Positions 18,230-43,280 of a DNA stretch of 64,000 bases are shown here, in pieces. The position numbers and the translations under genes were made by a program. Position 1 is the stretch's first letter; each line of letters begins with the position of its first letter. The notes beneath the pieces were generated by a model, which saw nothing but the letters and a program-made list of their open reading frames with translations, was not told where the DNA came from and ran no database searches. This DNA is from Flagellatimonas centrodinii (GTDB lineage Bacteria; Pseudomonadota; Gammaproteobacteria; Nevskiales; Nevskiaceae), in NCBI RefSeq assembly GCF_016918765.2, contig NZ_CP092104.1, positions 620,001 through 684,000 on the forward strand. The letters are read 5' to 3'.

Positions 18230-18243
18230 ATGCTGATAAACGC

Positions 18244-18816
18244 CTAGCGGGTCGTTTCGCCCACCCGCTCGCGGATCAGGGCGAGCGCGCGGGTGATGTG
18301 CTGGTCCACCATCGAGGTGGAAATGCGGCAACGCTCGGCGATCTCCCGATGTCGCAGGCCATGAAAGCGGCTCAGCACGAACACCTGACGGCAGCGTTCC
18401 GGCAGGGTTTCCACCGCGGCCACGATCAGGGACATCTGTTCATCGTGGGCCACCTGCTCGTCCACTGGCAGTTCATCGGCCTCAAGATCGAGATCATCCA
18501 CCGCCACCGTGCCGGCGGTGTTGTGGGTGCGATCCTGCCGACCGCGGGAGAACGCGAGGTTGATGGCGATGCGGAACAGCACCGCCTTGAGGCTTTCGGG
18601 GTCGCGATTGCGGTAGCGCCAGGCGCGGATATAGGTCTCCTGAGCCAGGTCGTCGGCATCCTGCTCATTGCCGAGCCGTCGTTGCAGAATCCGCAGCACG
18701 GCCGGGTGATGCTCCCGATAGGCCGCCTCGAATGCCGCCCGCTCGCCCGCCGCGGTCGCGCTGTCCCGCTCGATGTCATCCATGGCACCCGCCAGAAAGG
18801 GCTGCGGCGTGTTCAT
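18244..18816 (-). CDS. ECF RNA polymerase sigma factor 1 (FecI-like)
   Basis: 190 residues. Region 2 (YREHHPAVLRILQRRLGNEQDADDLAQETYIRAWRY split over residues about 36-72) and region 4 (LPERCRQVFVLSRFHGLRHREIAERC) match iron-starvation-type ECF sigma factors. The start MNTPQPFL is preceded by GGAGGA at about 7 bases. It is followed by its FecR partner, and its likely target is the TonB-receptor gene about 6 kb upstream on the same strand. The signal sensed is unknown. Confidence 0.92.
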   Translation of the reverse strand: MNTPQPFLAGAMDDIERDSATAAGERAAFEAAYREHHPAVLRILQRRLGNEQDADDLAQETYIRAWRYRNRDPESLKAVLFRIAINLAFSRGRQDRTHNTAGTVAVDDLDLEADELPVDEQVAHDEQMSLIVAAVETLPERCRQVFVLSRFHGLRHREIAERCRISTSMVDQHITRALALIRERVGETTR

Positions 18817-20306: not shown

Positions 20307-23300
20307 TCAACCGCCGAAGCCGATCCCCAGTTTCAGGGTCGGACCCTCGATCGTGCGGTCGTAGGTCTTGCGTTCTTCCACGCCACCATCAATGGCGTCG
20401 ATGTAACGCTCCCAGCGGTAACCCGCCGACAGGCTCAGGCTGTTCACCCGATAGCTCAGCCCCAGCGTCGCGCCCACCATCGGCACCGTCTCCGAGGTGC
20501 TGCGGCGGGTGCCGGGCACAGTGCGTTCGGTAATGGCTGTCGGCGTTTGCGGCGGCGCCTGGAAGCCGCTGGCCTGCACGGCCGTCCAGGCGTAGTACCA
20601 CTCACTTTCCTCGCTGTCGGCGATATCGGTGGTCTGACGACCGAACAGGGCCCCACCGCTCAACGACCAGTCCAGTTCCACCACACCCGACTGCGGGTTG
20701 CCGAACAATGGCGAGGCGGCACTCCAGGTCAGCAGCGGGCCGGTGCCGTCGAAGCCGCGCCGGGCATCAAAGTCGGCCTGATACACGGTGTGGGTCACCG
20801 GCCGCTGGCCGACAAAGAAGACGTCGACATTCTCGGGAATCATCCAGTCCGGCACCCCTTCCAGCGCCGCCTGGGTCTGCGAGATCAAGCGCGCCCGCCG
20901 CACTGCCAGCTCGACACTGGACCGCGAGAAGGTGCTCAGCTCCAGATCCCGGCGGATCGCCACATCAAACAGACGATAGCTTTCGGAGGCCCGCATCTCG
21001 GCCGCCACCCGGTTGGTACGAGAATAACTCTGCAGATCGATCCAAATCGGCGCCGGAATAGGATTGGTGCACTGTGCCTCGAAGGAGCCGCCTACCAACG
21101 GGCAGAAGGGCTCGGTCTCCCAGGATGCGCCGCCCGCCACCGAGTGGCGCAGATTCCCCTGACGATAGCCCACCGACAGTGTCCACGGCCCCGCATCGGG
21201 CCGCCAGCCGAGCTTGATCTCGCGGGTCTGGCCCCAGCCCAGGTCGGCGCTCTGCACACCCTCAGCGATATCCAGCGGTCCGGAGAAGGCGTCATAGAAG
21301 GTCGGCAGCGCCGCCGTATTGTCAGCATCCACCCGTTGCACCTGCCCGCCCACTTCCAATTGCAGCGGCCAGCGATGACCCGCATCAAACCGCCGCCCGA
21401 AGTTCCCCAGGGTCGACCCACCGCCCCAGTTCTTGGTCACCCGCAGGCCGAACAGTCGCGGCTCGGTGAGGAAGATGTTGGTGGTCAGGCCGGTGTCGTC
21501 GGAATTGAGGAAGGCGCCGGAGATGGCGGTTTCATCAAACACGTTCTTCACATAGGCCATCACGTTCCAGCCCGAGGCTTCGTTCATGAAGATCGCCGCC
21601 ACGTTGGCCGTGTAGTAGTCGTCCAGGCGACTGAACTCATGGTCGTTGAAGATGCGCCACCAGGACTCGGACTGCCAGTGCAGATCGGCATGCAGGGTCA
21701 TCAACCAGGCATTGCCCAGCGGCAGGATGTAGTCGCCCGTCAGGGTCAGGGTGTAGTTGGGGGCATTCGGCAGTTCGTTGCCGGACAGATCCTTGGCGAA
21801 GCCTTCACCGTTGTTGGGGGCGGTGGCGGGATCCCAGCCGGGATAGTTGGGGTGATACTGCAGCGTGTTCGAACCTCCACCCACGGTCGGATCTGGCACG
21901 TAAGGGAGGTTGGTGACCGGGTCATTGCCGTTCAGATAGGCAATCTCACAGCCACCGGGACCACCGCCACCAACGCTTCCGAGTCCGGTGGGGCCCGGGA
22001 CAAGGTCGCTTGTGAACTCACTCTCCCGCTTCAGCCCACCGAAAAGCCACTCCGGCAGGATGCAACTGGAGGCATAAGTTGGGAACGGCCGCACCACCAC
22101 CCAGTCGTCGTTACCGGCGGTGCGGTCCATCAGGTCGATGGCCTTCTCACCATCGCCGATACGGGTCTTCTGGTAGCCGCCCTTGAAGCCCAGCCGCAGG
22201 TTGTCCAGCGCGTACCAGTCGGTCTCGAGTTCGAAGCCCCAGATTTCGGCATCAAAATTCCGGTTGAAAGCGGAGCGATCCACGATCTCGGAGATCTGGT
22301 AGTCGTGGTAGTTGTAGTAGAACGCCGCCATATTGACCGTCAGACGGCCGTCCATGAGGGTGTTCTTGGTACCAATTTCGTAGGCGTTGATGAACTCGGG
22401 CTCAAAGGTCCGCGGCCGCGTCGCCGAGACGGCACCCAAGCCCTGCGCCTGGATGGGATCGGCATAGTAGGTATAGACGAACCCCGGCGGGTTGGATCCC
22501 CCCGCCTTGTAACCGCGGCTGAAGGACCCGTACACCAGGGTCTCGTCAGTGAAGCCGAGATCGGGCTTCCAGTCGAGCACGATGCGGCCGGTGGGCTCGC
22601 GCCAGGTTTGCGAAATGACTTCGGCGGTCGGGTAGCCGACCGTCAGTGACGCCAGGGTCCAGCTGGGGATGCGCGGGGCATCCTTTTCATCTTCCGACCA
22701 GCGCGCGCCCACCGTCAGCTTCAGGTCGGGCGTGATGTTGTAGTAGGCCTCGCCGAATATCGCCTGCGAGTGCAGGGTGTAGGGGTTGCGACTGAGGAAG
22801 TAGTTATGGCCCTTGTCATTGAGACTGCCGATGGGATTGGGGTCCATGTAGACACACTGGGTGACCCCGTAGACCTCCGCCGGATCGCCCGGCGCATAGC
22901 CATTGGGCAGGCAGACACCGTTATCGGTCACCCCTGCGATATATGGCAGGCGTTGGGAACTTGGGTTCGGATCGCCGAAGGCGGCAATCATGCTAATGGA
23001 ATTGAAAAAGACGTAATACTTGTCTTCAGTGGTATAGCGCAGATAGTTGGCGCCCAGACTGAAGTTGAACGGCCCGTCGAAGTCCGAGGCAATGCGCAGT
23101 TCCTGGCTGAACTGGCGCGATTCAGCGGTGGAGATATCCACTGCCACCAAGCGATCAGAGCACCCGAGTTGAGGATCACAGAAGATTCCCCCGTCGGGGC
23201 CGAGTTGTAACACCCCTTCTCTTAGATTTTCCACTTTCGTGGTATCGGCATTCAACCAAGCTCCCGGCGCTGTATTGAAGCGGTTGAAGTCCTGCAGCGA

Positions 23301-24971
23301 GTAGACAAAATCATCGCTGTAGGACGTCTCCGAGCTCAGGGTCAACGCATCGGTCAGCGCGATGTTGATCTGCAGCTCGCCGATATCGGCCTTGGCGCGG
23401 TACTCGGGATTGATGGTGGACTCGATGGTGCGGAGGCTCTGCTGCTGCGTGGTGCTGAGATAGGGATCGTCCAGCGCGATCGGCAGTCCGATACCCGCCA
23501 ACGGCACGTAGTAGGGCAGCATCACACCGTTGGGGGTCTGAAGGGAGTCGGCTGAATACAGTGAGCCCCGCTTACAGCCCTGGCTCAAGGTCGCCTGAAT
23601 CCCGGAGTACAACTGGAAGGCTTGCCCCGCGTTGGTCAGGTGCTCGAAATAGTCGACGTCATACCCCGCCACATTGGTCACGACATCCTTGTCGCAGAGC
23701 TGCTTGCCGGAACGCAGGCGGTCATCGTCTTCTTCGAAGTGCTCCCAGATCAGGTTGGCTTCAATGATGTCGTTGGGCTTGAACCGCAGCGAGGTGCGCG
23801 TGGACCACAGGTCCCGCCCGTCGATGGGGCTGTCGGTGATGGCGTTATCGGCGTAGCCGTCACGCTTGGTCCAGGCGCCGGCAAAGCGCAGGGCCACGGT
23901 GTCTTCCACCAGCGGCAGGTTGATCATCTGCTCGATGCGGTGGCTGTTGTAGTTGCCCATGTCCACCGACGCGCGCGCTTCTGCGTAAAAACTCGGCTTG
24001 GCAGTGATCAGGTTCACCACCCCGGCGGTGGCATTGCGGCCATAGAGGGTACCCTGCGGTCCACGCAGTACCTCGATGCGCTCGAGATCGTAGAATTCCT
24101 GCTCGAAGAAACGGTTGCGGACAAACGGGGTGTTGTTCATCGCCACCGCCACCGCGGGATCGGTCGTCGCCGAGATGGCCTGGGTGCCAATCCCGCGGAT
24201 CTGGATCGAATAGCCCGAGAAGTTGGTCTTGGTGAACGTCATGTTCGGGACCTGGGTGATCAGGTCCGGCCCGCCTGCGATCTGACTTTTGGTCAGGTCT
24301 TCCATGCTGAAGGCACTGATGGCAATCGGCACGTCCTGCAGCCGCTCCGACTTCTTCTGTCCGGTGACAATGATCTCTTCCACCCCGGCGCGGCGGGCAA
24401 TTTCGACGCTGGCCGTGGTGGACTGCCCCGGCGCGGCGATGCCGAGATCGATGCTGTCATCCCGCAGCAGAGCGGGGTCGGGCTGGTCGTCGAGCAGTGC
24501 AAGGTCAACGCTGACAATGCCGGCTTCGGCATCCACGCCGATGTCGGCGGCCTTGCGCAGCACCAGGGTTTCTGCGTTTACCGAGACGCCGACCAACCCC
24601 GTGCCCTCCAACAGCAGCTGCAGCGCCTGGGCGGCGGACAGCTCACCGCTGACAGCGGGCGTGCTGACGTCCTCGGAAATCTCGGGGCTATACAACACCC
24701 GCAGGCCGCTTTGCTCACCGAAGCGGTCGATGGCGTCGGCCAAAGAACTGGCCGGGATGTCGAAGCGGGCGGTGACGCCGGGCGCCAGTGCCGAGGTGCG
24801 GGTTTCCACCGCGTCGACCTGGGCCTGAGCCTGGGCGACCGGCAGCCCGACCAATGGCAATGCCAGCAACAACATGGCGATGCCATGCTGTAGCCGGGGC
24901 ATACGGGCGGGGGTTGGGCGCGCGCGGACACGGCCGAGTGCATCGGGGGCTTTTCTCTTCATATCTCCCAT
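20307..24971 (-). CDS. TonB-dependent receptor 1 with STN domain and extra C-terminal beta-barrel
   Basis: 1554 residues, far longer than usual receptors (700-1000). A signal peptide ends near AQAQAQ (about 50). A secretin/TonB short N-terminal domain spans about 69-139 (FDIPASSLADAIDRFGEQSG), the part that signals to FecR. The TonB box region is VEEIIVTGQKK (about 196-206). The plug follows with PDLITQVPNMTF, RGIGTQAIS and VLRGPQGTLYGRNATAGVVN. The barrel appears to end near residue 1182 at LFGLRVTKNW, as in ordinary family members. A further 372 residues form a second beta-rich region ending YDRTIEGPTLKLGIGFGG. An alternative start 9 bases downstream (MKRKAPD) is possible. Substrate unknown. 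The ECF/FecR pair 1 is nearby on the same strand. Confidence 0.93.
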   Translation of the reverse strand: MGDMKRKAPDALGRVRARPTPARMPRLQHGIAMLLLALPLVGLPVAQAQAQVDAVETRTSALAPGVTARFDIPASSLADAIDRFGEQSGLRVLYSPEISEDVSTPAVSGELSAAQALQLLLEGTGLVGVSVNAETLVLRKAADIGVDAEAGIVSVDLALLDDQPDPALLRDDSIDLGIAAPGQSTTASVEIARRAGVEEIIVTGQKKSERLQDVPIAISAFSMEDLTKSQIAGGPDLITQVPNMTFTKTNFSGYSIQIRGIGTQAISATTDPAVAVAMNNTPFVRNRFFEQEFYDLERIEVLRGPQGTLYGRNATAGVVNLITAKPSFYAEARASVDMGNYNSHRIEQMINLPLVEDTVALRFAGAWTKRDGYADNAITDSPIDGRDLWSTRTSLRFKPNDIIEANLIWEHFEEDDDRLRSGKQLCDKDVVTNVAGYDVDYFEHLTNAGQAFQLYSGIQATLSQGCKRGSLYSADSLQTPNGVMLPYYVPLAGIGLPIALDDPYLSTTQQQSLRTIESTINPEYRAKADIGELQINIALTDALTLSSETSYSDDFVYSLQDFNRFNTAPGAWLNADTTKVENLREGVLQLGPDGGIFCDPQLGCSDRLVAVDISTAESRQFSQELRIASDFDGPFNFSLGANYLRYTTEDKYYVFFNSISMIAAFGDPNPSSQRLPYIAGVTDNGVCLPNGYAPGDPAEVYGVTQCVYMDPNPIGSLNDKGHNYFLSRNPYTLHSQAIFGEAYYNITPDLKLTVGARWSEDEKDAPRIPSWTLASLTVGYPTAEVISQTWREPTGRIVLDWKPDLGFTDETLVYGSFSRGYKAGGSNPPGFVYTYYADPIQAQGLGAVSATRPRTFEPEFINAYEIGTKNTLMDGRLTVNMAAFYYNYHDYQISEIVDRSAFNRNFDAEIWGFELETDWYALDNLRLGFKGGYQKTRIGDGEKAIDLMDRTAGNDDWVVVRPFPTYASSCILPEWLFGGLKRESEFTSDLVPGPTGLGSVGGGGPGGCEIAYLNGNDPVTNLPYVPDPTVGGGSNTLQYHPNYPGWDPATAPNNGEGFAKDLSGNELPNAPNYTLTLTGDYILPLGNAWLMTLHADLHWQSESWWRIFNDHEFSRLDDYYTANVAAIFMNEASGWNVMAYVKNVFDETAISGAFLNSDDTGLTTNIFLTEPRLFGLRVTKNWGGGSTLGNFGRRFDAGHRWPLQLEVGGQVQRVDADNTAALPTFYDAFSGPLDIAEGVQSADLGWGQTREIKLGWRPDAGPWTLSVGYRQGNLRHSVAGGASWETEPFCPLVGGSFEAQCTNPIPAPIWIDLQSYSRTNRVAAEMRASESYRLFDVAIRRDLELSTFSRSSVELAVRRARLISQTQAALEGVPDWMIPENVDVFFVGQRPVTHTVYQADFDARRGFDGTGPLLTWSAASPLFGNPQSGVVELDWSLSGGALFGRQTTDIADSEESEWYYAWTAVQASGFQAPPQTPTAITERTVPGTRRSTSETVPMVGATLGLSYRVNSLSLSAGYRWERYIDAIDGGVEERKTYDRTIEGPTLKLGIGFGG

Positions 24972-25315: not shown

Positions 25316-25402
25316 ATGGAACCGTTGGTCCGCTGCCTGCGTCCGTTCCCCACAGCATTCCGTATGATCAGAACGGTTCTTGACCATGGATGGCAGGCAA
25401 TG

Positions 25403-27886
25403 ATGAAAGTGACTTGGGCACTGGCTATGGCGGCGGCTTCCGTGCTGCCAGCGGCATGGGCGGTGACGCCCCAACACCCCTTGGCACCGCATGTGCCGGG
25501 CGAGGTGATCGTGCAGTACCGGCCGGGGGCGGTGCTCGGCAAGTCATCGGCCGCCTGGGGCCTGGAGAAGCGTGCGACGCTGGCCGAAGGCGCGGCGGCG
25601 CTGTTTGCGGTGCCGGCCATCACCGATGTGGCATCCATGATCGACGCGCTGGCCGACGACCCGGCGGTGGCCTGGGCCGAACCCAACTATCTGCGCTACC
25701 CGCTGCAAACTGCCACGCCCAACGACCCCCTGTTCGGTGACCTGTGGGGCCTGCAGAACACCGGTCAGGCCAACTTCGTGCCTGGCCCGGGCGCGCCGGT
25801 CAGTGTGGTGGGGGCGGACATGAACCTGCTGGCGGCCTGGGACCCGGCCGGTGACGGCAGCTTTACGCGCACCGGCGACCCGTCGGTGGTGGTGGCGATC
25901 ATCGATGACGGCTTCGAGATCGGCCATGCCGATCTGGCCGACAACTTCATCAGCGCCGCTGGCTATGGCGACCCGCGCCCGACCAGCAGCGAACAAAACC
26001 ACGGCACGCTGGTGGCGGGCTCGCTCGGTGCCATCGGCAATAACGGCCGCGGCGTGGCCGGCACCACCTGGCGCAGTTCGTTACTGCCGCTGCGGGTGGG
26101 CTCCAGCAGCGGCGGGCTGAGTTCGGCCGACATCATGCGGGCCATCGAATACGCACGTGACAACGGCGCTGACATCATCAACGCCAGCTTTGGCGGGCCG
26201 GGATATTCGCAGACCGAGGAGAACCTGATCCGCGGTCTCGCTGATCGCGACATCCTGTTCGTGGCGGCCGCCGGCAACGACGACGCCAATCTGGACTTCG
26301 GGCGACTGGCCTACCCGGCGCTGTACGACGCCCGCAACGTGATCGCGGTGGCCGCCACCAACCGCCAGGACGATATCGCCAGCTTCAGCATGTACGGCCC
26401 GCTCAGCGCGGACGTGGCGGCGCCCGGCCTGCAGATTGTCACCACCGCGGTGGGCGGTGGCTATGTCACCGGTAATGGGTGTGGCAGTGGCGGCAATTGC
26501 GGCGTCTCGGGCACCTCGTTTTCGGCGCCCTACGTCGCGGGTATCGCGGCGCTGCTGAAAGCACATGTCAGCCCAACGCCGGGCTGGCGCGAGATCAAGG
26601 CGCGGCTGGTGGAAAGCGGCGATTCGCTGGGCAATGCCCGCGCCCGCAGCGCCGGTGGCCGGGTGGATGCGGCAGCGGCGCTGGACATGAGCCCACGACC
26701 TTCACTGACGATCGACACGGTCACGCTGGACGACGGCAATAACGGGCGGCTCGACCCCGGGGAAACTCTCGACGTGGTCGTCACCGTGTTCAACGGCTGG
26801 ATGCCCGCCAGCAACGTACAGGCCAGCCTCAGCGCACAGGGGCCGGTGACGGTGAACGACGGCACCCTCAGTCTCGGCAGCATCGCGGCCGACGGCACGG
26901 CGCAGGCGCGGTTCAGCGTCACCGTCGGCGGCACGCCAGGACAGTATGAGGAGGTGATCTTCACCCTGGCCCTGAGCGCGGACGGTGGCTACAGCACCCA
27001 GCGCAGTTTCATCCAGGAGGTGGCGCTGCTGCCGCTGGGCATGACGGTGAATCCCAGCTTCCAGATCGGCCTGCCCGACCCCGACGCGCTCTACGACGAG
27101 TTCCACACCTGGCATCTCGATGTGCCGAGCAAACCGGCCGGCACCCACACGCTGGTGGTGCGCAGCCGCACCGCCAACGAGATCGACATTGATCTGCTGG
27201 GGCGCGCCGGCAGCGCACCGCGCTACCTGATCACCCTCAATCTCGACCCCAACATTCCGACCAATCGCGGGTTCTTCTGCACCGGCACCACCGCCGGCTG
27301 CCAGGACCCGAACACACTCGTCGGCGGTCGCTTCGACGGCAACGAGGCCAACACCTTCGTGCTCACAGATGGCACCAGCTTGCCGCAGAGCTTCTATTTC
27401 ACGGTGGTGAACTTTGCCCAGGCTGCCTTCGGCTACGAGTTGAGCGCCAGCCTCGAGGCGGGCGACCTGCGCCCAGCGCCGTTCAACTTCGAACCCGCCA
27501 CCCAGGTCCCGCCCGGGCAGCTGGCAGTGTCCAATGTCATCACCGTCAGCGGCATCACCGCGCCGACCTTCGCCTATGCCGGCAACGGCCAGATCAGCGT
27601 CAACAATGGCCCCTATGTCACCGACACCACGGTGGAGAACGGCGACACCGTGCGGGCGCGCGCGCTGTCACCGGCCAGTGGCACCACGCGGGCGGATGTC
27701 ACCATCGGCGGCGAAGAATCATCGTTCATCGTCACCCCCGGCGCGGTGGTGCCCGGCCCCGGCGTACCGGGTCCGCTGCCCTCCGGCGGCGGCGGGGCGC
27801 TGTCGTGGTGGATGCTCTGCGCCGCCCTCATTGGCGTGGCGAGCCGCCGAGTCACCGTAGTCATCGGGAGACCACGGAGCGCCTGA
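25403..27886 (+). CDS. Secreted subtilisin-like serine protease (S8) with GlyGly-CTERM-like tail
   Basis: 827 residues. The signal peptide (MKVTWALAMAAASVLPAAWA) supports this start, and the preceding in-frame ATG lies one codon upstream. A propeptide-like region covers about 30-100 (GEVIVQYRPGA...AEPNYLRYP). The catalytic triad is Asp167 (VVAIIDDG), His199 (EQNHGTLVAG) and Ser371 (SGTSFSAPYVAG). Two or three beta-sandwich regions follow, including a CARDB-like part (LDPGETLDVVVTVFNG). The tail has SGGGGALSWWMLCAALIGVASRR, shown here in outline as Gly-rich, hydrophobic, Arg-Arg, which resembles the GlyGly-CTERM sorting signal cleaved by rhombosortase. Unusually, 11 residues follow the Arg-Arg. 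It is divergent from TonB receptor 1 and stands alone. Confidence 0.92.
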   Translation: MKVTWALAMAAASVLPAAWAVTPQHPLAPHVPGEVIVQYRPGAVLGKSSAAWGLEKRATLAEGAAALFAVPAITDVASMIDALADDPAVAWAEPNYLRYPLQTATPNDPLFGDLWGLQNTGQANFVPGPGAPVSVVGADMNLLAAWDPAGDGSFTRTGDPSVVVAIIDDGFEIGHADLADNFISAAGYGDPRPTSSEQNHGTLVAGSLGAIGNNGRGVAGTTWRSSLLPLRVGSSSGGLSSADIMRAIEYARDNGADIINASFGGPGYSQTEENLIRGLADRDILFVAAAGNDDANLDFGRLAYPALYDARNVIAVAATNRQDDIASFSMYGPLSADVAAPGLQIVTTAVGGGYVTGNGCGSGGNCGVSGTSFSAPYVAGIAALLKAHVSPTPGWREIKARLVESGDSLGNARARSAGGRVDAAAALDMSPRPSLTIDTVTLDDGNNGRLDPGETLDVVVTVFNGWMPASNVQASLSAQGPVTVNDGTLSLGSIAADGTAQARFSVTVGGTPGQYEEVIFTLALSADGGYSTQRSFIQEVALLPLGMTVNPSFQIGLPDPDALYDEFHTWHLDVPSKPAGTHTLVVRSRTANEIDIDLLGRAGSAPRYLITLNLDPNIPTNRGFFCTGTTAGCQDPNTLVGGRFDGNEANTFVLTDGTSLPQSFYFTVVNFAQAAFGYELSASLEAGDLRPAPFNFEPATQVPPGQLAVSNVITVSGITAPTFAYAGNGQISVNNGPYVTDTTVENGDTVRARALSPASGTTRADVTIGGEESSFIVTPGAVVPGPGVPGPLPSGGGGALSWWMLCAALIGVASRRVTVVIGRPRSA

Positions 27887-33178: not shown

Positions 33179-34549
33179 TCAGTTGCCTGCACGTCGCACC
33201 CCGTCGATGCTGAACTCGCCCGGCCGCGGCTCGCGGCGGTTGAACCGGGCCGAGCTCGGCTCTTCGCTGGTGATGTTCTCGGCGCTGTAGGCGCCCGACA
33301 GCAGGTCCTGATAGAAGCTGGCGTTGAGGTAGTAGAACTGGCCATCGTAGGCGTAGGCGGCGGCGTTGTTGGTGACCCGCCACAGCTCGCCGCGACGGTC
33401 GTACAGGTCTGCCAGCGACAGCTGCCAGGAGTCCTCTTCGACATAGAACACACGCTTGCCGTAGACGTGCCGGTTGCCGGGCTTCAGGGTGCCTTCCACC
33501 ACCCAGACCCGTCGCAGCTCCCAGCGCAACGTATCGGGGTTCGGGTGCCCGGTGGTCGAGGTGATGTCGGCATAGGCCGTGGCGGGGTCTTCCAGCCGGT
33601 TGGTGTGGAACGGTACGTAGAGCGCCTGCCGCCCCACCAACTTCCAATCGAAACGCTCGGGCGAGCCGTTGAATCCGTTCTGCTCGTCCACTACCCGCGG
33701 CCCCACCGGCATCGGGTAGTCGAACCCGACATCCGGCGACTTGCGCAGCCGCCGTGAACCGGGGTCGTACTGCCAGGCCTGGCGCGGTGCGTTGAGAAAG
33801 TCGAAGGTGTTGACAGTGAATGACACCTTGCCTGCCTCGCGTGGCGGTGCCTTCTGCGCACTGATGCTCTGCGAATAGACGTCGCCGTCGTTCCAGCCTT
33901 CGCGGTCGTTGCCCCGCAGATAGCGATTGAACACCGTCAGCTCGTTGCGGGCCCAGGCCACGGCACCGTTGGGCTGCACATACGCGCCGACATTGGGCGC
34001 TTCGAGCATCCAACCGCCCACCGTGGTCATGATGTTGTAGACCACCTCGATTCCGGTCTGCGGGATTGGAAACGCCGGCCCGCCATAGGCACCGACCAGC
34101 GTAAGGCCATCGTTGGTGAGGGACGCTTCGGTGGCATTGCGCCGCACGTTCTCGTTGACCGTGTCGCTGTGGCGAAAATCGCGGCGCGTCGGGTACACCA
34201 CCATGCGATAGGTGTCGGGGTAGCGTGCGAACAGGGCCTTCTGGCCCTCACTCAGGTTCGCCGCGTGCTCGGCCATGTTGGCCGCGGTAATGGTGAGCAG
34301 CGGCGCGTCGTCCGGGTACGGGTCGGCATTGCGCTTGCCGTCGTAGTCGACGTGCTCGGGCACCCCCAGCCACTTGCCGCTCCATTCGGGGATGCGGCCG
34401 TCCTCGCTGGCAGCGCGCTCGGCGCCGGTGGGGGTCAGCGTGGTGCCGAGTGCGGCGGCGGCTTCAGCCGACACCGCCGAAAATGCGGGCTGGCTGGCCA
34501 CAAGGCTGATCAAGGCAACCGCCGGCAGGCAGATGAACGTGGTTCTCAT
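33179..34549 (-). CDS. DUF1329 periplasmic/outer-membrane-associated protein
   Basis: 456 residues with a signal peptide (MRTTFICLPAVALISLVASQ, cleavage near AFS-A). The body matches DUF1329: LGTTLTPTGAERAASEDGRI and PEWSGKW near the N-terminus, YPDDAPLLTITAANMAEHA, then the aromatic WVVEGTLKPGNRHVYGKRVF and EEDSWQ. The family has a LolA/LppX-like fold and usually accompanies DUF1302 proteins and sometimes RND pumps, often in degraders of hydrophobic compounds. It follows the DUF1302 gene by 19 bases. A role in moving a hydrophobic ligand across the periplasm is inference. Confidence 0.9.
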   Translation of the reverse strand: MRTTFICLPAVALISLVASQPAFSAVSAEAAAALGTTLTPTGAERAASEDGRIPEWSGKWLGVPEHVDYDGKRNADPYPDDAPLLTITAANMAEHAANLSEGQKALFARYPDTYRMVVYPTRRDFRHSDTVNENVRRNATEASLTNDGLTLVGAYGGPAFPIPQTGIEVVYNIMTTVGGWMLEAPNVGAYVQPNGAVAWARNELTVFNRYLRGNDREGWNDGDVYSQSISAQKAPPREAGKVSFTVNTFDFLNAPRQAWQYDPGSRRLRKSPDVGFDYPMPVGPRVVDEQNGFNGSPERFDWKLVGRQALYVPFHTNRLEDPATAYADITSTTGHPNPDTLRWELRRVWVVEGTLKPGNRHVYGKRVFYVEEDSWQLSLADLYDRRGELWRVTNNAAAYAYDGQFYYLNASFYQDLLSGAYSAENITSEEPSSARFNRREPRPGEFSIDGVRRAGN

Positions 34550-34568
34550 GTGGTTTCTCCGTCCGGGT

Positions 34569-36197
34569 TCAGAAGCTGTACTTGGCGCTGAAGGCCACAT
34601 GGCTGCGGTCGGCCAGGGTTTTGTTCACCAGATCCGGTGTGCCGCGATAGCCGTTCCATGCGGCCTGCAGTTCAAGGTTGCCGAGGTACTTGCCGGTCAC
34701 GCCAACGCTGTAGCGCTCGTCGCCCTCACCGGTGAAGCTGCCGAGCGCCCCGGCGATGGCCGGCTTGCCGTGGAACAGGTGCCCGTGCACCAGCGACAGC
34801 GTCAGGTCCCAGCCCGGGAACACCTGCTGATACCCGAACTGCGCCAGCAACTGATACGCCGTGGCGGTGTGGCCGTTGCTGGGGGTGTCGAAGGTGGCGC
34901 CGCCGACGACGATGGGCTCGACATCCTGAAGCTGCAGCCACGACACCTCACCGAGCACCGTCAGCGTGTCCCACAGCGCCGTCGGCAGCAGCAACCGGGT
35001 CAGGCCCAGGTTGGCCTGCAGGGCGTCGGCACGCCCCGGGGTCGGCGAGTTGGTTGGGCCCACATTGATGTTGACGCCGGCGCCTTCACGGTAGGTCAGC
35101 TCCCCCGCTACCGCCGTGCCGAGCACCTGCGAGGCGAAGCTGGCGCCGGTCATCTTGATGTCGTCGATGTACACCGCGTTGTAGCCCACCGGCAATGGCT
35201 GAAACACGCCGGGCGCCACCTCGATCGGTGTCACCTGGGTGAAGACACCGGTGGGGTTCTTGTCGTGATAGCGGATGTGATGCACGCCCACCTCGGTGGC
35301 ATCGCCCAGGCGCAGGCGGGTCGACAACCCCCACTGACCTTCGTCATCAGGCTCGATGTCATCCCCGCGCGGCACCCGATCGAGGCCGAACGGCGCCAGC
35401 GACGGAATCAGCAGCGTGTTGGCGCCCGGCCCGATGACATCGGTGGAGCTGAAGAAGGCCCCCGCCGGGTTCAGCTCGGTCGACTCCCACTCCCACTGCC
35501 AATAGCTGGCGACACTGATCCGTGGCGTCAGCCCCCACTGCAGGTAGACCTGCCCCACCGGCAGCAGAATCTCCTTCACCTCGGTGCCCGGCACGTTCGA
35601 CTTGGTGGCATCCGCCGGCGACTGCGCGCCACTCATGTTGGGAAAGAACAAGCTCTCGCCCCACGAAATGACCTGGTTGCCAACCCGAACATCCAGCGCC
35701 GTCTGCCCGAGGTACCAGGTGCCGTAGGCGTAGGCATCGAGCAGCCGTGCGCGGCCGCCGAGAAACTTGCGTGCCTCATCGGTGAATTCGTTGGGGTCGC
35801 CATCCTTGTTGGCCGACGCCGGATTGTCGTGATCGTTGTCGCGCCGGTACACGTTGTCGTAGAAGGCACTGCCGCGGACGAATGCCCCATACTGCTGATG
35901 CCGTAAGTGCAACTCGCCGAGCACCGCCAGCCGATTGTTGATCATCGCGCCGCGCGCGAAATTGCGGTTGCCGTCGTCGCCATTGACGTTGCTGTTGAGC
36001 GTGGCGTCCGGGTCTTCCAGCCGCCAGGCGGCGCTGTAGGTCAGGTTGGCGAGATAGTCGAGCGAGGTATCAACCCCGAGACCGATGGTGCCTGCCTGTA
36101 CCGGCGCCGCCATCAGTACCGCCGCGCCCACAACGATGCTGCTCAAAAACGATTGCCCTGCCGCGCGTGCCGCCGATGAATGCCAGGAAGCGTTCAT
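34569..36197 (-). CDS. DUF1302 outer-membrane porin-like protein
   Basis: 542 residues. The start MNASWHSSAA gives a long signal peptide with cleavage near VQAGT (about 35). The body is a predicted beta-barrel with family segments such as LDAYAYGTWYLG, RVGNQVISWGESLFFP, LLPVGQVYLQWGLTP and a C-terminal aromatic AKYSF as in outer-membrane proteins. It is the first gene of a two-gene unit with DUF1329. By family context it is thought to be a channel for hydrophobic or aromatic compounds; the substrate here is unknown. A palindrome lies 111 bases upstream. Confidence 0.9.
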   Translation of the reverse strand: MNASWHSSAARAAGQSFLSSIVVGAAVLMAAPVQAGTIGLGVDTSLDYLANLTYSAAWRLEDPDATLNSNVNGDDGNRNFARGAMINNRLAVLGELHLRHQQYGAFVRGSAFYDNVYRRDNDHDNPASANKDGDPNEFTDEARKFLGGRARLLDAYAYGTWYLGQTALDVRVGNQVISWGESLFFPNMSGAQSPADATKSNVPGTEVKEILLPVGQVYLQWGLTPRISVASYWQWEWESTELNPAGAFFSSTDVIGPGANTLLIPSLAPFGLDRVPRGDDIEPDDEGQWGLSTRLRLGDATEVGVHHIRYHDKNPTGVFTQVTPIEVAPGVFQPLPVGYNAVYIDDIKMTGASFASQVLGTAVAGELTYREGAGVNINVGPTNSPTPGRADALQANLGLTRLLLPTALWDTLTVLGEVSWLQLQDVEPIVVGGATFDTPSNGHTATAYQLLAQFGYQQVFPGWDLTLSLVHGHLFHGKPAIAGALGSFTGEGDERYSVGVTGKYLGNLELQAAWNGYRGTPDLVNKTLADRSHVAFSAKYSF

Positions 36198-36307
36198 GCG
36201 TCTCCTCCGCTGTCTTGCGAATGGTTGTTGTGCGCCCCAGTGGTCCGGGGTCACGCAAACCATGGCAACACCCGTCAGCGGTGTCCTACTCCGTTCGGCC
36301 TACGCGA

Positions 36308-36736: not shown

Positions 36737-39700
36737 TCAACCGCCGAAGTCGAGTGAGATCGTCGTGGTGGGCCCTTTGATCGTGCGATCGTAGGATTCG
36801 GGTGTGTCAGCCCCACCATCGATGGCATCGATGTAGCGCTCCCAGCGATAGGCCGTGCCGATGCTGAAACCTCCAACCCGATAGGTCAGTCCCAGGCTGG
36901 CCCCCACCACCGGGACGTTTTCCGAACGGGTTCGCGTGCTGCGAGGGATGTCGGTTTCCTCAATCGACGATGGGGACGGCGGCACAACCGTCAATCCAAT
37001 GAGATCACCGCCCTTCAGCTCGTTGACCCGCGCCTTTTCGCGGCCGGAGACCGTCACCCGCTGGTCACCGTGCAAGATGCCGCCAGTGAGCCCCCAGTCC
37101 AGATCGACAACGCCCGAACGCCCGCCATCAAACAAGCGATTCGCGGCTTCCCAATTCACCATCAGCCCGGTCCCCTCGAACTGTCGGCGCACGGCGATAT
37201 CGGCGTTGTACAGGGTGCGTGTCGCCAGATTTCCCGGCAACCCTTGAATCACCACGATATTCTCCGGAATGTTCCAATCGGGGATCCCGTTCAGCGCAAC
37301 GTCTGTGTCGGAATCGAGTCTGCCACGCCGCAGGCCGATACCCACAGCGGAGCGTTCCAGACCGCCGAAACGCCATTCTCGCCACAGGGTCAGGTCGGAG
37401 AAGCGATAGGCCTCACGGTCCCGTATGGAGATCGCCGCATTGTTGGCAATCGAGAAGTTCGTGAGTGGCAGGAACTGCCCAATCCCGTCGACGCTGTTCG
37501 GATCGCTGCAGATCTCCGGGTTTTGCAGCTCGAGAATCCCTCCTGCCAGCGTGCACACAGGGTCAGTGAATTGCTCGGCATAGGCGTCTGCCTTGCCCGT
37601 GGTACTTCCGAACCGATACTGCCCCGCAAGCGCCCATGGCCCTTCGCCCATATTCCAGGTCAGGCCGATTGAGCGACCGTCCCCCCAGCTCAAGCTCTCG
37701 TTCTGCGGGCCATCGAAGATATCCAGCGCCCCCGAAAAGGCATCGCCGAAGCTGGGGGCCACCGGCGTCGTGGGCGCGTCGATCTTCAACACCTGCCCGC
37801 CCAGCGCCAGGGTCAGGGGGAACCGGTGGTCCGCAGGGCGGCGCGCGCCAAACCCACGAATCACGCCACTGCCATTCCAGTTCTTGGTCACCCGCAGGCC
37901 GAACAACCGGGGCTCGGTCAGAAAGACATTGGAGGTCAGACCGGTGTCGTCGGAGTTGAGGAACGCGCCTGAAATGGCGGTCTCGTCAGTCACATTCTTG
38001 ATGTAGGCCATGATGTTCCAGCCGTCGACATCATTGACGAAGATGGCGGCCAGATTCATCGTGAAGTACTCGTCCAGACGGTTGAACTCGTGGTCGTTGA
38101 ACACCCGCCACCAGGATTCCGACTGCCAGTGCAGATCGGTGTGCAGGTTCATCAGCCAGCGACTCGACAACGGGATGGTGTAATCCGCAGATACCGTGGC
38201 CGTGTAGTTGGGCGCATTCGGCAGTTCGTTGCCCCCCAGCTCCTTCGCAAATCCCTCCCCGTTGTTGGGCGCGGTGGCAGGGTCGAAGCCCGGGTAGTTG
38301 GTATGTCGGTCCAGTTGACTGCGCGCAATCCCGCCGGGTAGGCCCTGTGCCTCCCTCTCTGCCATGGTCAGATCGCTCAATTGAATGGTGGGATCCGGCA
38401 CATAGGGCAGCTGCGTCACGGGGTCGTAACCTTGGCCGTAAGCGATTTCACAGCCCCCCACACCACCACCTCCCACACCGCCAAGCGGTACCACTTCCGT
38501 CGGATTGTCCGGGTCGTCCAGAAACACCATGGTGGGCAGGATGCAGCTCGAGGCGATGGTCGGGAACGGCCGGACCACCACCCAATCCTCATTGCCGGCA
38601 GTCCGGTCCATCAAATCGACGGCAGCTTCACCATCGGCGATGCGGGTCTTCTGATAGCCGGTCTTGAGCCCGAGTAGCAGGTTTTCACGTGCGTACCAAT
38701 CCAGCTCAATCTCGGCACCCCACACCTCGGTGTCGAAGTTCCGGTTGAAGGCGGAGCGATCCACGATTTCGGAGACCTGATAGTCGGTGTAGTCGTAGTA
38801 GAACGCTGCCAGGTTGGCCGTCAGTCGCCCGTCCAACAGCGTGTTCTTGGTGCCGATCTCAAAGGCGTTGACGAACTCGGCATCGAAGGTTTTTGGACGG
38901 GTTGCCGAGGCCTGCTGCGCCGCCCGTGCTGATCCCGGATCTGCGTAGTAGGACCGCACGAAGCCGGGAGGATTGGCGCCTCCCGCCTTGTATCCGCGCG
39001 AGTAAGACCCATACAACAGCGTCTCGTCAGTGAAGCTTAGATTGGGCTTCCAATCGAGGACCAGTCGACCCGTGGGCTCCCGCCATTCCTGTCGCTCGAC
39101 ATCAGCGACCGGGTAGCCATAAGTCCCGGTCACCAACAGCCACGTTGGAATGCGCGGCGCCGTTTTCCGATCCACGGACCAACGAAGACCTGCCGTCAGC
39201 TTGAGGTTGTCGGTGATGTTGTAATACGTCTCGCCAAAGAGGCCATAGGATCGAAGGCCGTAAGGATTTCGACTGAGGAAATAGTTGTGGCCCTGGTCGT
39301 TGACGCTATCGATGGAGTTGGGGTCGATATAGGTACAACCTTGCACTGTGTATAGGTCATCCGGATTCCCGGGTGCATACCCATTGAGCAGACAGCCACT
39401 GTTGTCGGATTGACCAGCGACGTAGGGACCGTCGGGCAGTGGGTCGGGATTGAACCGATAGGGGTTCCGCGCCGCGATCAGGCTGATGGAGTTGAAAAAG
39501 ACCTGGTACTGCACCTCGGTATCAAAGCGCAGATAGTTGGCCCCCAAACTGAAGTTGAAGGGGCCATCAAAGGCCGAGGCGAGTCGCAGTTCCTGACTCA
39601 GCTGTTCCGATTCCGAGGATGCGATATCAACCCCGACTAGACGGTCGGAGCAGCCCAGCTGGGGATCACAGAAGACACCATTCTCATCAAGAACGCCATT

Positions 39701-41386
39701 GTCCACGGACAGCGCGTCGGTAGCCCAGGCGCCTGGCGCCGTATTGAAACGGTTGAAGTCCTGCAGCGAATAGGCGCTGTCGAGTCCGTAGGCCGTCTCC
39801 GAAGTGAGGGTCAGGCTGTCGGTAAGACCGATGTCGAGTTGCAGATGCCCGATATCGGCACTGGCCCGATAGACCGGGTCAATGGTGGACTCGATGGCGC
39901 GCAGATCTTGCGACTGTGTGGTGCTGAGATACGGGTCGTCCAGCGCCGTCGGCAGACCGATGGCGCTCAATGGCACGTAGTAGGGCAACATCAGACCATT
40001 CGGGGTCTGGAAGGCGGCGGCATCGTATAGCGACCCGCGTGTGCAGCCCTGGCTCAAGGTGGCCTGCGTTCCTGCAAATAACGCGCCTGATTGCCCCCCT
40101 GCGGTATCGGTACTGAAGTAGTCCTGAGGCACTCCTCCGACTTCAGTAACGACATCCTTGGTACACAGCTGCTTACCGGAGCGAAGACGATCATCGTCTT
40201 CCTCGAAGTGTTCCCAGGTGATGATGGCATCGATCCGGTCGTTGGGCTGAATGCGCAACGACATGCGGGTGGAGAACAGGTCCCGGCCATCGATGGGGCT
40301 GCCGGTGATGTCGTTGGTGGCGTAGCCATCCCGCGTGGTGCCGGCCCCGGCGACCCGGAACGCGACGGTATCTTCGAGCAGCGGAATGTTGAGCATGCCC
40401 TCCCATCGACTGCTGTTGTAGTTGCCCATGTCCAGCGACGCCCGCGCTTCGGCATCGAACTTGGGTTTATTGGTGATCAGGTTGACCACCCCGGCGGTCG
40501 CGTTGCGGCCGTAAAGAGTGCCCTGTGGTCCGCGCAGCACCTCGACCCGCTCGAGGTCGTAGAACTCCTGTTCGAAGAAGCGGTTGCTGATGAACGTGGT
40601 GTTGTTCATCGCCACCGCCACGGCGGGGTCGGTGGTGGCCGAGATGGCCTGGGTGCCGATGCCGCGAATCTGGATGTTGTAGCCGGTGAAGTTGGTCTTG
40701 GTGAACGTCATGTTCGGGACCTGGGTGATCAGGTCCGGTCCACCAGCGATCTGCCCTTTGGTCAGGTCTTCCATGGTGAAGGCGCTGATGGCGATGGGGA
40801 CGTCCTGCAAGCGCTCTTCACGCTTCTGACCGGTGACGATGATTTCTTCAACGCCCCGCCGTCGGGCCATCTCCACCGCGGCGGTTCCGCCCGGGGCTGG
40901 AGTGGTATCCACGGTCGGATCAAACAGCTCGCCGTTGGCGTTGGGATCCGCAAGGGCAACCTCAGCGCCCTGCCCGCGGCTACGCTCGAGCAGTTGCCGC
41001 TGGTACCGCTCCACCGCGGCCGGCTCACCCACCATCAGCCCACCATCAGGTGTGAACAGGTATTCCAATGCGGTGCCCTGAAGCAATTGCTCGATGGCCT
41101 GCTCACGGCTGAGGTTGCCGCTGACCGGGGTGGCCACCTTGCCGACCACGGCGTCGGGCGCGAAGAACAGCTCCTGCCCACTCTGCCGGCCAAATTCCGC
41201 CAGGGCGGTGCCGAGGTCCTGCGAGGGGATATCAAAGCTGGTGGTGCGCGCCGAGACGGCTGTCGCCGCTGTGAGATCGGCGGCCGAGTTCCCTTGCGCC
41301 CACGCGCCCGGTGCCAGCGCGAGACCTCCCCATGCCAACAGCAGGGCGCCGGCGATCTGTGCCGGGCCAAAACGCGATTCGGACAT
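36737..41386 (-). CDS. TonB-dependent receptor 2 with STN domain and extra C-terminal beta-barrel
   Basis: 1549 residues, a paralogue of the receptor at 20.3-25.0 kb. GGAGG precedes the ATG, and the signal peptide ends near APGAWAQ (31). The STN domain spans about 50-120 (FDIPSQDLGTALAEFGRQSG), the TonB box region is VEEIIVTGQKR (about 179-189), and the plug has DLITQVPNMTFTKTNF and VLRGPQGTLYGRNATAGV. The receptor barrel appears to end near 1170 at LFGLRVTKNW. A further 379 residues form a second beta-rich domain whose end (YRWERYIDAIDGG, YDRTIKGPT) is nearly the same as in receptor 1. The FecR/ECF pair 2 lies 157 bases upstream. A strong terminator follows. Substrate unknown. Confidence 0.93.
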   Translation of the reverse strand: MSESRFGPAQIAGALLLAWGGLALAPGAWAQGNSAADLTAATAVSARTTSFDIPSQDLGTALAEFGRQSGQELFFAPDAVVGKVATPVSGNLSREQAIEQLLQGTALEYLFTPDGGLMVGEPAAVERYQRQLLERSRGQGAEVALADPNANGELFDPTVDTTPAPGGTAAVEMARRRGVEEIIVTGQKREERLQDVPIAISAFTMEDLTKGQIAGGPDLITQVPNMTFTKTNFTGYNIQIRGIGTQAISATTDPAVAVAMNNTTFISNRFFEQEFYDLERVEVLRGPQGTLYGRNATAGVVNLITNKPKFDAEARASLDMGNYNSSRWEGMLNIPLLEDTVAFRVAGAGTTRDGYATNDITGSPIDGRDLFSTRMSLRIQPNDRIDAIITWEHFEEDDDRLRSGKQLCTKDVVTEVGGVPQDYFSTDTAGGQSGALFAGTQATLSQGCTRGSLYDAAAFQTPNGLMLPYYVPLSAIGLPTALDDPYLSTTQSQDLRAIESTIDPVYRASADIGHLQLDIGLTDSLTLTSETAYGLDSAYSLQDFNRFNTAPGAWATDALSVDNGVLDENGVFCDPQLGCSDRLVGVDIASSESEQLSQELRLASAFDGPFNFSLGANYLRFDTEVQYQVFFNSISLIAARNPYRFNPDPLPDGPYVAGQSDNSGCLLNGYAPGNPDDLYTVQGCTYIDPNSIDSVNDQGHNYFLSRNPYGLRSYGLFGETYYNITDNLKLTAGLRWSVDRKTAPRIPTWLLVTGTYGYPVADVERQEWREPTGRLVLDWKPNLSFTDETLLYGSYSRGYKAGGANPPGFVRSYYADPGSARAAQQASATRPKTFDAEFVNAFEIGTKNTLLDGRLTANLAAFYYDYTDYQVSEIVDRSAFNRNFDTEVWGAEIELDWYARENLLLGLKTGYQKTRIADGEAAVDLMDRTAGNEDWVVVRPFPTIASSCILPTMVFLDDPDNPTEVVPLGGVGGGGVGGCEIAYGQGYDPVTQLPYVPDPTIQLSDLTMAEREAQGLPGGIARSQLDRHTNYPGFDPATAPNNGEGFAKELGGNELPNAPNYTATVSADYTIPLSSRWLMNLHTDLHWQSESWWRVFNDHEFNRLDEYFTMNLAAIFVNDVDGWNIMAYIKNVTDETAISGAFLNSDDTGLTSNVFLTEPRLFGLRVTKNWNGSGVIRGFGARRPADHRFPLTLALGGQVLKIDAPTTPVAPSFGDAFSGALDIFDGPQNESLSWGDGRSIGLTWNMGEGPWALAGQYRFGSTTGKADAYAEQFTDPVCTLAGGILELQNPEICSDPNSVDGIGQFLPLTNFSIANNAAISIRDREAYRFSDLTLWREWRFGGLERSAVGIGLRRGRLDSDTDVALNGIPDWNIPENIVVIQGLPGNLATRTLYNADIAVRRQFEGTGLMVNWEAANRLFDGGRSGVVDLDWGLTGGILHGDQRVTVSGREKARVNELKGGDLIGLTVVPPSPSSIEETDIPRSTRTRSENVPVVGASLGLTYRVGGFSIGTAYRWERYIDAIDGGADTPESYDRTIKGPTTTISLDFGG

Positions 41387-41543: not shown

Positions 41544-42716
41544 TTAGCTGCGGCGGCCTAGAACAATCCGATCTTCGCTGATGTCGAGAATGCGGATGGG
41601 GAAGTGCAGGGTCAGCATGTTGACGAAGACGTTAGGGTTGCTGGTGCTGAACACGCCGCTGACCCGCAGCTCGCCGAGGCCGGGGTCCTGCAATACCACC
41701 TGACGGCGACCGTAGCGATTGAGTTCAGCAAGCGCGCCGGTGAGGGGGTCGTCTTCGAAGATGAGCTGGCCGTTGCGCCAGCTGACCGCACGCGCGGTGT
41801 CGGTCTGGCGGACCACGGAGGCGGCGCCAGCGGAGGGGGTGGTGGCGGCGACGAGTTGCTGACCTGCGGTCAGCACGTGAGGGGTGAGGGAGGTGGCGCC
41901 GGCGGCGCCACCGGGAATCGGGAATCGGGAGTCCGAAGCGGGTGAGCCGTCAGCAGTGCCAGTGGCACTGCTGAGCCCGCGGCGGACGGGCGGCAGCCCC
42001 GAAGGAATCGCGCTTTCGGCGACTTCGACCTTGCCCTCGATGAGGGTGACCTCGAAGCGTTCGGGGGCGAGGTGGATATCGAAGGCGGTGCCGAGGGCGG
42101 TGACCTGGTGGTTGCCGGCGGTGACGATGAAGGGATGCGCCGGGTCCTTCGCCACTTCGAACAGGGCCTGCCCTTGTAGCAGCGCGATGTGGCGGGCGGC
42201 CTCGTCGTACTGCACCACGGCGCGGCTGTCGGTGTTGAGGGTGACGACGCTGCCGTCATCCAGGGTGATGGCGAGGCGCTCGCCGACGGCGGTGCGGTAC
42301 AGCGCATCGCCGGCCAGGGCGTAGCGCAGCTTGGCTTGTAGGTAGCGGGCTTCATCCAGCGAACCGCCGGTGAGCACGGCGGCGCCCGTGACCAGGGCGA
42401 CCACGCCGGCAGCGACGGCGAGCCCGACCTGTCGACGACGGCGACGCTGGCCGCGGGCACGATGGATGATCTCGGCTTCCATCGCCTGCGCGGCGTGGGC
42501 GCCACCGGCGAGGCGGGCCATTCGATAGGTGTGGTCGAGCGCGTCGAAGGCAGCGGCATGTTCGGGCCGTTCGGCGCGCCAGCGTTCGAAGGCGGCCTGC
42601 AGGCCCGGGCTGGCATTGCCGTCGCGCAGGGCATCGCTCCAGACAGCGGCCTGGGCGTTGAGGCTGCCGCGGCTGCGGGCGAGCCGGTCGATCTCGGTGG
42701 CGGTCAACGCGGGCAT
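41544..42716 (-). CDS. FecR-family regulator 2
   Basis: 390 residues. The cytoplasmic N-terminal part (1-90) has LQAAFERWRAERPEHAAAFD and a basic run (RRRRRQ); one membrane helix spans about 97-118. The FecR domain follows (LDDGSVVTLNTDSRAVVQYD, LLQGQALFEVAKD, VTALGTAFDIHL), then a C-terminal STN-like part (DDPLTGALAELNRYGRR). It is about 65 residues longer than regulator 1, mainly from an insert at about 235-290. Part of that insert (SDSRFPIPGGAAGAT) is encoded by an intergenic-type repeat. It starts directly after the ECF stop and precedes TonB receptor 2. Confidence 0.92.
   Translation of the reverse strand: MPALTATEIDRLARSRGSLNAQAAVWSDALRDGNASPGLQAAFERWRAERPEHAAAFDALDHTYRMARLAGGAHAAQAMEAEIIHRARGQRRRRRQVGLAVAAGVVALVTGAAVLTGGSLDEARYLQAKLRYALAGDALYRTAVGERLAITLDDGSVVTLNTDSRAVVQYDEAARHIALLQGQALFEVAKDPAHPFIVTAGNHQVTALGTAFDIHLAPERFEVTLIEGKVEVAESAIPSGLPPVRRGLSSATGTADGSPASDSRFPIPGGAAGATSLTPHVLTAGQQLVAATTPSAGAASVVRQTDTARAVSWRNGQLIFEDDPLTGALAELNRYGRRQVVLQDPGLGELRVSGVFSTSNPNVFVNMLTLHFPIRILDISEDRIVLGRRS
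41894..41933. repeat. GGCGCC/GGGAATC intergenic-type repeat inside fecR 2
   Basis: GGCGCC-N3-GGCGCC followed by CGGGAATCGGGAATCGGGAGTC. It matches the intergenic sequence at 25078-25115 with only a few differences. It is in frame and encodes part of the FecR insert. Confidence 0.8.
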
Positions 42717-43280
42717 TCAGTCGGCCAGGTGCTGGTGCAGGTAGGTGAGCGCACGCGCCATGTGCTTGTGGACGACGCGGGTGGAAATGCCCAGCAGCCG
42801 CGCCACATCATCGTGCTTGCGTTGCTGCACCGCCCGCAGAAAGAAGATGTCACGCGTGCGTTGCGGCAGCTTCTGCAGGGCGGCGTTCATGCGCGCCAGC
42901 ATTTCCTCACCGATGACGATGCGCTCGAGGCTGATCTCGGTGGCGACGGCATGGCTGGCTTCGTCGTAGGATTCGTGGGCGTCGTGCTGACGCGCCTTCA
43001 TGCTGCGGCCCTGGTCGCAGAGCACACTGGAGGCCACCTGGAACACGTACTGCTGTACCCGTTCGATGGGTTTGCCGTTGCCGCGGCGCAGTAGCTGAAC
43101 GAACACTTCCTGGACCAGGTCATCAACATCCGAGGGGTTACGGGCCCGCTGGGCAAAGAAGCCGCGCAGCGCCGGGCCGTAGCGGCGCATCACGTTCTCC
43201 CACTGATGGCTCGCGTCGTCGCCGAAGTCCGCCAGGGCGGTCGGCGGCGGGGCTGACGACGACGACGGTGATTGAGTCAT
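42717..43280 (-). CDS. ECF RNA polymerase sigma factor 2
   Basis: 187 residues. Region 2 has RNPSDVDDLVQEVFVQLLRR and region 4 LPQRTRDIFFLRAVQQRKHDDVARLLGISTR. The N-terminal 25 residues are Ser/Pro-rich and not conserved. The stop is immediately followed by the FecR start (TGA-ATG), so the two are co-translated. It differs clearly from ECF factor 1, for instance in the helix-turn-helix, which suggests distinct promoter use. The probable target is TonB receptor 2 downstream. Confidence 0.92.
   Translation of the reverse strand: MTQSPSSSSAPPPTALADFGDDASHQWENVMRRYGPALRGFFAQRARNPSDVDDLVQEVFVQLLRRGNGKPIERVQQYVFQVASSVLCDQGRSMKARQHDAHESYDEASHAVATEISLERIVIGEEMLARMNAALQKLPQRTRDIFFLRAVQQRKHDDVARLLGISTRVVHKHMARALTYLHQHLAD

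Follow-up and report, generated by a model that had tools for sequence, protein, structure and literature searches.

The analysed window, a stretch of 64,000 nucleotides from Flagellatimonas centrodinii, carries on its reverse strand the gene of a TonB-dependent receptor with a C-terminal Legionella_OMP-like domain (36737..41386, – strand), here called R2, which was read as an uninterrupted open frame of 1549 aa with Pfam domains. The features of a TonB-dependent receptor, a plug and a 22-strand barrel, are present according to Pfam and the structural model, with both PF07715 (Plug) and PF00593 (TonB_dep_Rec_b-barrel) above the Pfam cut-off. From the N-terminus, the chain consists of an STN-like signalling segment (residues 74–119; 41030..41167, – strand), in which PF07660 reaches 21.9 bits (E 1.6e-4), under the curated cut-off of 28.4, of the plug domain (residues 193–300; 40487..40810, –; PF07715 E 6.2e-15), and of a first barrel (residues ~313–1170; 37877..40450, –), delimited with AlphaFold and Foldseek and having 22 strands by count. 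The end of strand 22 is the motif LFGLRVTKNW (37877..37906, –), whose last residue, 1170, was placed from the C-termini of paralogues, and it is followed by a tail of 379 aa (36740..37876, –), a probable second barrel of Legionella_OMP-like type by hhalign comparison with PF05150 proteins and by its amphipathic pattern.

Directly upstream, R2 is adjoined by a gene for a FecR-like anti-sigma regulator (41544..42716, –; PF04773 E 4.5e-22) and by that of a FecI-like sigma factor (42717..43280, –; PF08281 E 3.8e-12, PF04542 E 1.3e-6), which we take from the context to be of the ECF type; this adjacency, based on the Pfam domains of the neighbours, was tested for R2. Downstream lie the genes of a DUF1302 protein (34569..36263, –; PF06980 E 9e-140), presumably an outer-membrane barrel, and of a DUF1329 protein (33179..34600, –; PF07044 E 8.7e-109), a kind of protein that usually accompanies DUF1302. 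A position between FecI-like and FecR genes on one side and DUF1302 and DUF1329 genes on the other fits a ligand-sensing importer.

A paralogous fused receptor, R1, is encoded in the same window (20307..24971, –). It is an open frame of 1554 aa, 60% identical to R2 over the full length, with an STN match that is likewise under the curated cut-off (E 7.2e-5) and a tail of 372 aa after LFGLRVTKNW (20310..21425, –), in which PF05150 reaches 25.6 bits in a search of the own genome. Its next gene upstream is a divergent subtilase gene (PF00082, window positions 25316–27886), and a FecR-like gene (17255–18331, –) lies downstream. Much of what the preliminary description had read from these two genes stands: both receptors run past the motif, by 379 and 372 residues, in single open frames, and the two tails share VVGASLGLTYRV/MVGATLGLSYRV, an identical YRWERYIDAIDGG, YDRTI(K/E)GPT and PDW(N/M)IPEN. 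They align end to end in BLASTP with 42% identity (E 9e-98, 283 bits). When the whole genome (3.6 Mb in 2 contigs, 99.31% complete) was searched with the R2 tail at E ≤ 1, four matches and no fifth were returned, namely R2, R1 and two further fused receptors, R3 and R4, which sit at two other loci with different flanks.

The receptor core of R2 (residues 182–1170) was modelled with AlphaFold from an alignment of 54 sequences (R2, R1 and 52 of 69 qualifying outside stretches), giving a mean pLDDT of 82.8 and a pTM of 0.84. After the plug, the model has 22 barrel strands, counted from the DSSP list, the last of which lies at positions 980–988 of 989 and so finishes one residue short of W1170. 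The nearest solved folds found by Foldseek are siderophore receptors, the best being FyuA (4epa, E 4.2e-36), with a TM-score of 0.87 when normalised to the target and 0.57 when normalised to the query length. Eleven tail-less paralogues in the same genome, U1–U11, all stop directly after the residue aligned to W1170, as exemplified by the C-terminal end LTTNVFTLDPRLIGVSISKQF. Outside this genome, a scan of GTDB contigs with core and tail gave 119 relatives, and the best 79 loci of the 119 were taken forward; 93 frames in them match the core, and 81 of these could be aligned, with their stop, within 40 residues of the core end. Beyond that end there are no residues in 77 of the 81, one or two in three and 135 in one, an alphaproteobacterial receptor relative (L114, 4300 onward) with a C-terminal extension at the same junction. 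At some of the outside loci, the tblastn spans overrun the core by as much as 42 residues; we take this for chance extension, as the frames stop at the core end and the tail model finds nothing at E ≤ 0.01 in frames of more than 180 aa at these loci. Since the core models as a complete barrel and the tail-less paralogues stop at the junction, the tail has been added behind a receptor that is complete without it, and is not part of the receptor itself.

Among the genomes searched, a convincing tail occurs in one only. It was found in the own genome alone among 41 relatives, in 1 of 85 genomes of the order and in 1 of 369 of the class, the own genome each time; in a sample of the phylum, 3 of 398 genomes match at E ≤ 0.01, these being the own genome and two weak fragments with E values of 0.001 and 0.006. 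The R2 tail has no match on plasmids at E ≤ 0.1, a scan of GTDB contigs with two peptide patterns, which a diverged tail could escape, gave 45 stretches of which none was confirmed, and a tail model run against frames of more than 180 aa at the best 79 of the 119 outside receptor loci returned nothing at E ≤ 0.01. This distribution makes the fusion a lineage-specific event. Two congeners are without the receptor clade (their best partial core matches have 34–37% identity in one and 28% in the other), partial core matches at E ≤ 1e-40 occur in 3 other of the 58 genomes of the family, and the best outside relatives of the core, among the best 79 of 119, come from Sphingopyxis, Microbulbifer, a gammaproteobacterial MAG and Lysobacter, with ~40% identity over the compared part. 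The expanded set of receptors may have been acquired by transfer.

The history of the four copies was followed in a tree of 27 cores, 15 from the own genome and 12 from the 79 outside loci. R1–R4 form one clade with a support of 100/100, and the presence of the tail requires one change of state; three clades neighbour the fused one, in an order that the core tree leaves unsettled. Judging by this tree, there was one fusion event, followed by gene copying to four loci, and R1 and R2 are therefore not independent evidence for recurrent fusion. The fusion had been called conserved in the preliminary description: this holds in that it is common to four paralogues, but not across species, as R1–R4 are a single clade that is confined, among the genomes searched, to one. 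The absence of the tail from close relatives had been considered there as a point against conservation; the two congeners do lack it, but because the receptor genes are absent too. Tail identity is 43% for R2–R1 and R2–R4, 54% for R2–R3, 47% for R1–R3 and R3–R4, and 99% for R1–R4, while the corresponding core values are 74% for R1–R2 and R2–R4, 69% for R2–R3, 65% for R1–R3 and R3–R4, and 93% for R1–R4. The tails have no internal stops, and in R1 and R2 their GC content by codon position is similar to that of the rest of the gene. With the NG86 method, dN/dS is 0.17–0.46 in all six pairs of tails, with a high dS of 1.2–1.5 in every pair except R1/R4, and 0.13–0.30 in the cores; the tail thus evolves faster and is nevertheless constrained, in line with the earlier view of a domain under selection.

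The only family to which the tail could be linked is PF05150 (Legionella_OMP), and the link is faint with the Pfam model itself. In the search of the own genome, R4 (26.1 bits) and R1 lie just above the cut-off of 25.4 and R3 (19.6 bits) below it, while R2 does not appear at E ≤ 1; by hmmscan, the whole R1 protein scores 22.9 bits (E 4.9e-5), below the cut-off in that run, and the R2 tail alone 10.7 bits (E 0.24). A comparison set was assembled from seven stand-alone PF05150 proteins of five genomes. In one hhalign comparison, the profile of the four tails matches this set with a probability of 97.7 and an E value of 1.7e-12, both profiles being shallow (Neff 1.7 and 3.4), and the alignment covers tail columns 143–372, ~230 residues that reach to a common C-terminus. 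Against single members of PF05150, the tails gave 0.7, 3.7, 5.9, 15.2, 85.4, 90.2 and 91.9%, and against the other comparison sets 1.3% (autotransporter barrels), 0.9% (receptor core) and at most 0.6% (five single proteins). In the reverse direction, a model of the seven PF05150 proteins finds the tails of R3 (E 7e-12), R4 (6e-11), R1 (1e-10) and R2 (6e-6); its best match among nine neighbour proteins is a small OMP_b-brl protein at E 0.005. As far as profile comparison can tell, the last ~230 residues of the tail are related to stand-alone Legionella_OMP proteins, and not to TonB or autotransporter barrels.

Other identities that were considered for the tail failed. As a duplicated TonB barrel it is rejected by the 0.9% against the receptor core, and as an autotransporter barrel by the 1.3%, together with the absence of PF03797 from R1, R2 and the R2 tail at E ≤ 1; no NCBIfam family matches the R2 tail at E ≤ 1, and no PDB sequence matches the tail at E ≤ 10. 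For its first ~140 residues no relative was detected, and the stand-alone PF05150 proteins likewise have an unaligned stretch opposite them. Most PF05150 members seen are in frames of ~293–482 aa without a receptor, and among the frames of the class sample PF05150 is joined to a receptor-length chain (at least 1100 aa) in none besides the window's own. The family matches at E ≤ 1e-4 in 25 of the 369 class genomes, and 3 of these 25 have several of its domains in one open frame, as possible tandem-barrel proteins: three domains in a frame of 1071 aa (G044:C4:95941-98952), two in one of 656 aa (G080:C13:1082037-1083896) and two in one of 700 aa (G168:C71:45509-47365). With two or three domains per frame in three genomes, chains of several barrels seem to be tolerated in this family.

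Whether the tail is itself a barrel was approached through its strand pattern. The alternation of outward and inward residues in the four tails is reached by 0, 10, 1 and 0 of 500 shuffles, as compared with 0, 13, 1 and 4 of 500 for four known or predicted barrels and 126, 360, 243 and 292 of 500 for four of five non-barrel controls. The fifth control, ThiC, is a soluble enzyme that also passes (2 of 500), so that the alternation test is suggestive only and not specific; its scripts, like those for calling strands, use a residue scale set from general knowledge. Conservation was compared over R1–R3, with R4 excluded as a near copy of R1. The earlier proposal that strands are conserved and loops vary is borne out column by column: among the 178 columns assigned to amphipathic strands 75 are invariant, as compared with 50 among the 204 others, and none of 381 circular shifts of the strand mask performs equally well. 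All twelve gapped columns fall outside the strands, which is built in, as gapped windows are not callable as strands. Within the strands, the outward residues are the more conserved (46 of 86 invariant, against 29 of 94 inward). From this strand-biased conservation and the family relationship, the tail is probably a second β-barrel.

An alternative to which we give a small share of probability is that the tail is a soluble β-rich domain, periplasmic or surface-exposed, for example a ligand- or peptidoglycan-binding module. The 135-residue extension of L114 stands at the same junction and, going by its motif, is a putative OmpA/MotB-like peptidoglycan-binding domain; moreover, the first ~140 tail residues match nothing. 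A soluble domain is at odds, however, with the co-terminal homology to an outer-membrane protein family and with alternating strands whose outward face is conserved.

The reading that we consider likely is that R1–R4 are two-barrel outer-membrane proteins, in which a complete TonB receptor is followed by a Legionella_OMP-like second barrel lying alongside it, and which arose by one in-frame fusion and were then copied. The second domain would fold as a barrel of its own beside the first, and the linker would lie on the periplasmic side; ~17 residues separate the end of the first barrel from the first strong strand of the tail. The first barrel, driven by TonB, would import a ligand; it would also switch on its own gene, by a signal passed from the STN-like segment to FecR and the sigma factor. 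The second barrel may be a passive partner held at a 1:1 ratio, serving as a pore or a surface-binding module like the Legionella MOMP, a protein which belongs to PF05150 by the family's own description and is described as having porin function (PMC6050704). As to origin, a Legionella_OMP-type gene would have been joined in frame behind a receptor once, and the product later copied to four loci.

The tail strands could instead join the 22 strands of the receptor in one giant barrel with a single, very wide pore. Barrels in general grow by hairpin addition, the linker is as short as stated, and the tail alone gave no confident fold (AlphaFold on two sequences, pLDDT 26.1). Such a structure is nonetheless improbable, considering that the core, modelled without the tail, already closes into a plugged barrel of 22 strands, that the cores are 65–74% identical among R1, R2 and R3, that eleven paralogues exist without a tail and that relatives of the tail occur without a receptor, in frames of 293–482 aa.

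A possible partner barrel of another kind is found in the neighbouring, tail-less clade U5–U11. Each of these seven receptors is followed downstream, as the next called gene and in the same orientation, by an autotransporter gene (PF03797 E 1.5e-15 to 8.6e-43), with a gap of ~1 kb for U6 and smaller gaps for the other six; the loci are L137 2833-5928, L138 1322-5011, L139 3752-6268, L140 10018-13053, L141 9756-12143, L142 3517-6030 and L143 3582-6140. Behind the autotransporter, two of the seven pairs have a further small outer-membrane gene, one of which was tested with Pfam and is PF13505. U1–U4 and R1–R4 are without a following autotransporter, the sole one nearby, beside U2, being that which follows U7, and a model made from the seven autotransporters found none in the flanks (up to 6 kb) of the best 79 of the 119 outside loci. 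That the tail is the barrel of such a downstream autotransporter, captured by deletion, is suggested by the seven pairs and by one of these autotransporters, D9, which faintly matches the tail model (E 0.007, 4.5 bits, 46 residues), but it is very improbable in view of the 1.3% that hhalign gives between the tails and the seven autotransporter barrels, the absence of any autotransporter better than E 1.1 in BLASTP, and the fact that the D9 match stops short of the C-terminus and no passenger remains. Lastly, a read-through, frameshift or misassembly, which would also give a tail seen in no other searched genome, can practically be dismissed, as the preliminary description had argued for a chance read-through, given four copies in four contexts of a 2-contig, 99.31% complete genome, frames without internal stops and with coding-like base composition in R1 and R2, and dN/dS below 0.5 among tails whose identity, except in the pair R1/R4, has fallen to 43–54%.

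Returning to the two-barrel reading, we put forward tentatively, as a suggestion that may well prove wrong, that the receptors of this family have as their partner another outer-membrane barrel, which is a separate autotransporter next door in the neighbouring clade (7/7), and fused in cis and of another family in R1–R4. In the fused protein, a transporter powered by TonB would then carry on a tether a passive pore or docking barrel, by which the ligand is captured or pre-concentrated. We know of no TonB receptor in which such a division of labour within one chain has been found.

Multi-barrel outer-membrane proteins as such are a published, if little-studied, class, with GfcD/YjbH as an example (PMC11494523, PMC9603273, PMC8592465). 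GfcD is described as having predicted barrels of 12 and 13 strands joined through a periplasmic domain, and is a proposed exporter of lipid-anchored polysaccharide (PMC11494523). Like this class (YjbH/GfcD), the R2 chain would hold more than one barrel domain; unlike in GfcD, a plugged TonB receptor forms the first barrel, and a short linker leads to a second domain of Legionella_OMP-like type. With the FecA/FpvA-type transducers that work with FecI/FecR, R2 shares a plug, a 22-strand barrel and the adjacent sigma factor and FecR genes, to which its STN-like segment, under the Pfam cut-off, may be added, and it differs from them in the ~990 residues from plug to barrel end, in long loops of low model confidence and in the second domain. 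As to PF05150, the C-terminal ~230 residues of the tail are profile-homologous to the family and have the same C-terminus, whereas most members seen are in frames of ~300–480 aa, the tail domain follows a receptor, and R2 alone is under the family cut-off. By the titles and abstract openings listed, no TonB receptor fused to another barrel was found in the literature searched; the paper of Solan et al. (2021) in PNAS, whose contents lie outside that search, reportedly deals with multi-barrel proteins and with their lineage-specific fusion and copying. A search of the literature for Legionella_OMP by name had no match, and for receptor-autotransporter operons nothing relevant was found among the titles listed. 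Two-barrel chains are thus already known, and the pairing of a TonB receptor with a Legionella_OMP domain looks new.

To our knowledge, outer-membrane proteins of solved structure have, with few exceptions, a single barrel in each chain. If the two-barrel reading is true, the C-terminal assembly signal of the receptor lies in the middle of the chain, which would make these proteins a natural test of how BAM recognises and closes successive barrels. Moreover, a single genome, with its four fused copies and eleven tail-less paralogues, readily allows receptors that have the second domain to be compared with those that lack it.

Two minor observations concern the individual copies. R1 (window 20307–24971) and R4 (L017 6396-10967) are mosaics of each other: their tail DNA is 98.7% and their core DNA 89.9% identical, their N-terminal regions are only 36.5% identical in protein, and ~900 consecutive aligned bases, spanning the core end and much of the tail, are the same. 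This near-identity of the tails is most likely due to recent gene conversion, which would homogenise transporter and tail but leave the sensing domains distinct. At the R3 locus, R3 and its FecI/FecR-like genes are preceded upstream by a CRISPR array with 28-base repeats, presumably of type I-F (L016 1-1404; bases 1–600 were read as DNA and the remainder was seen in translation).
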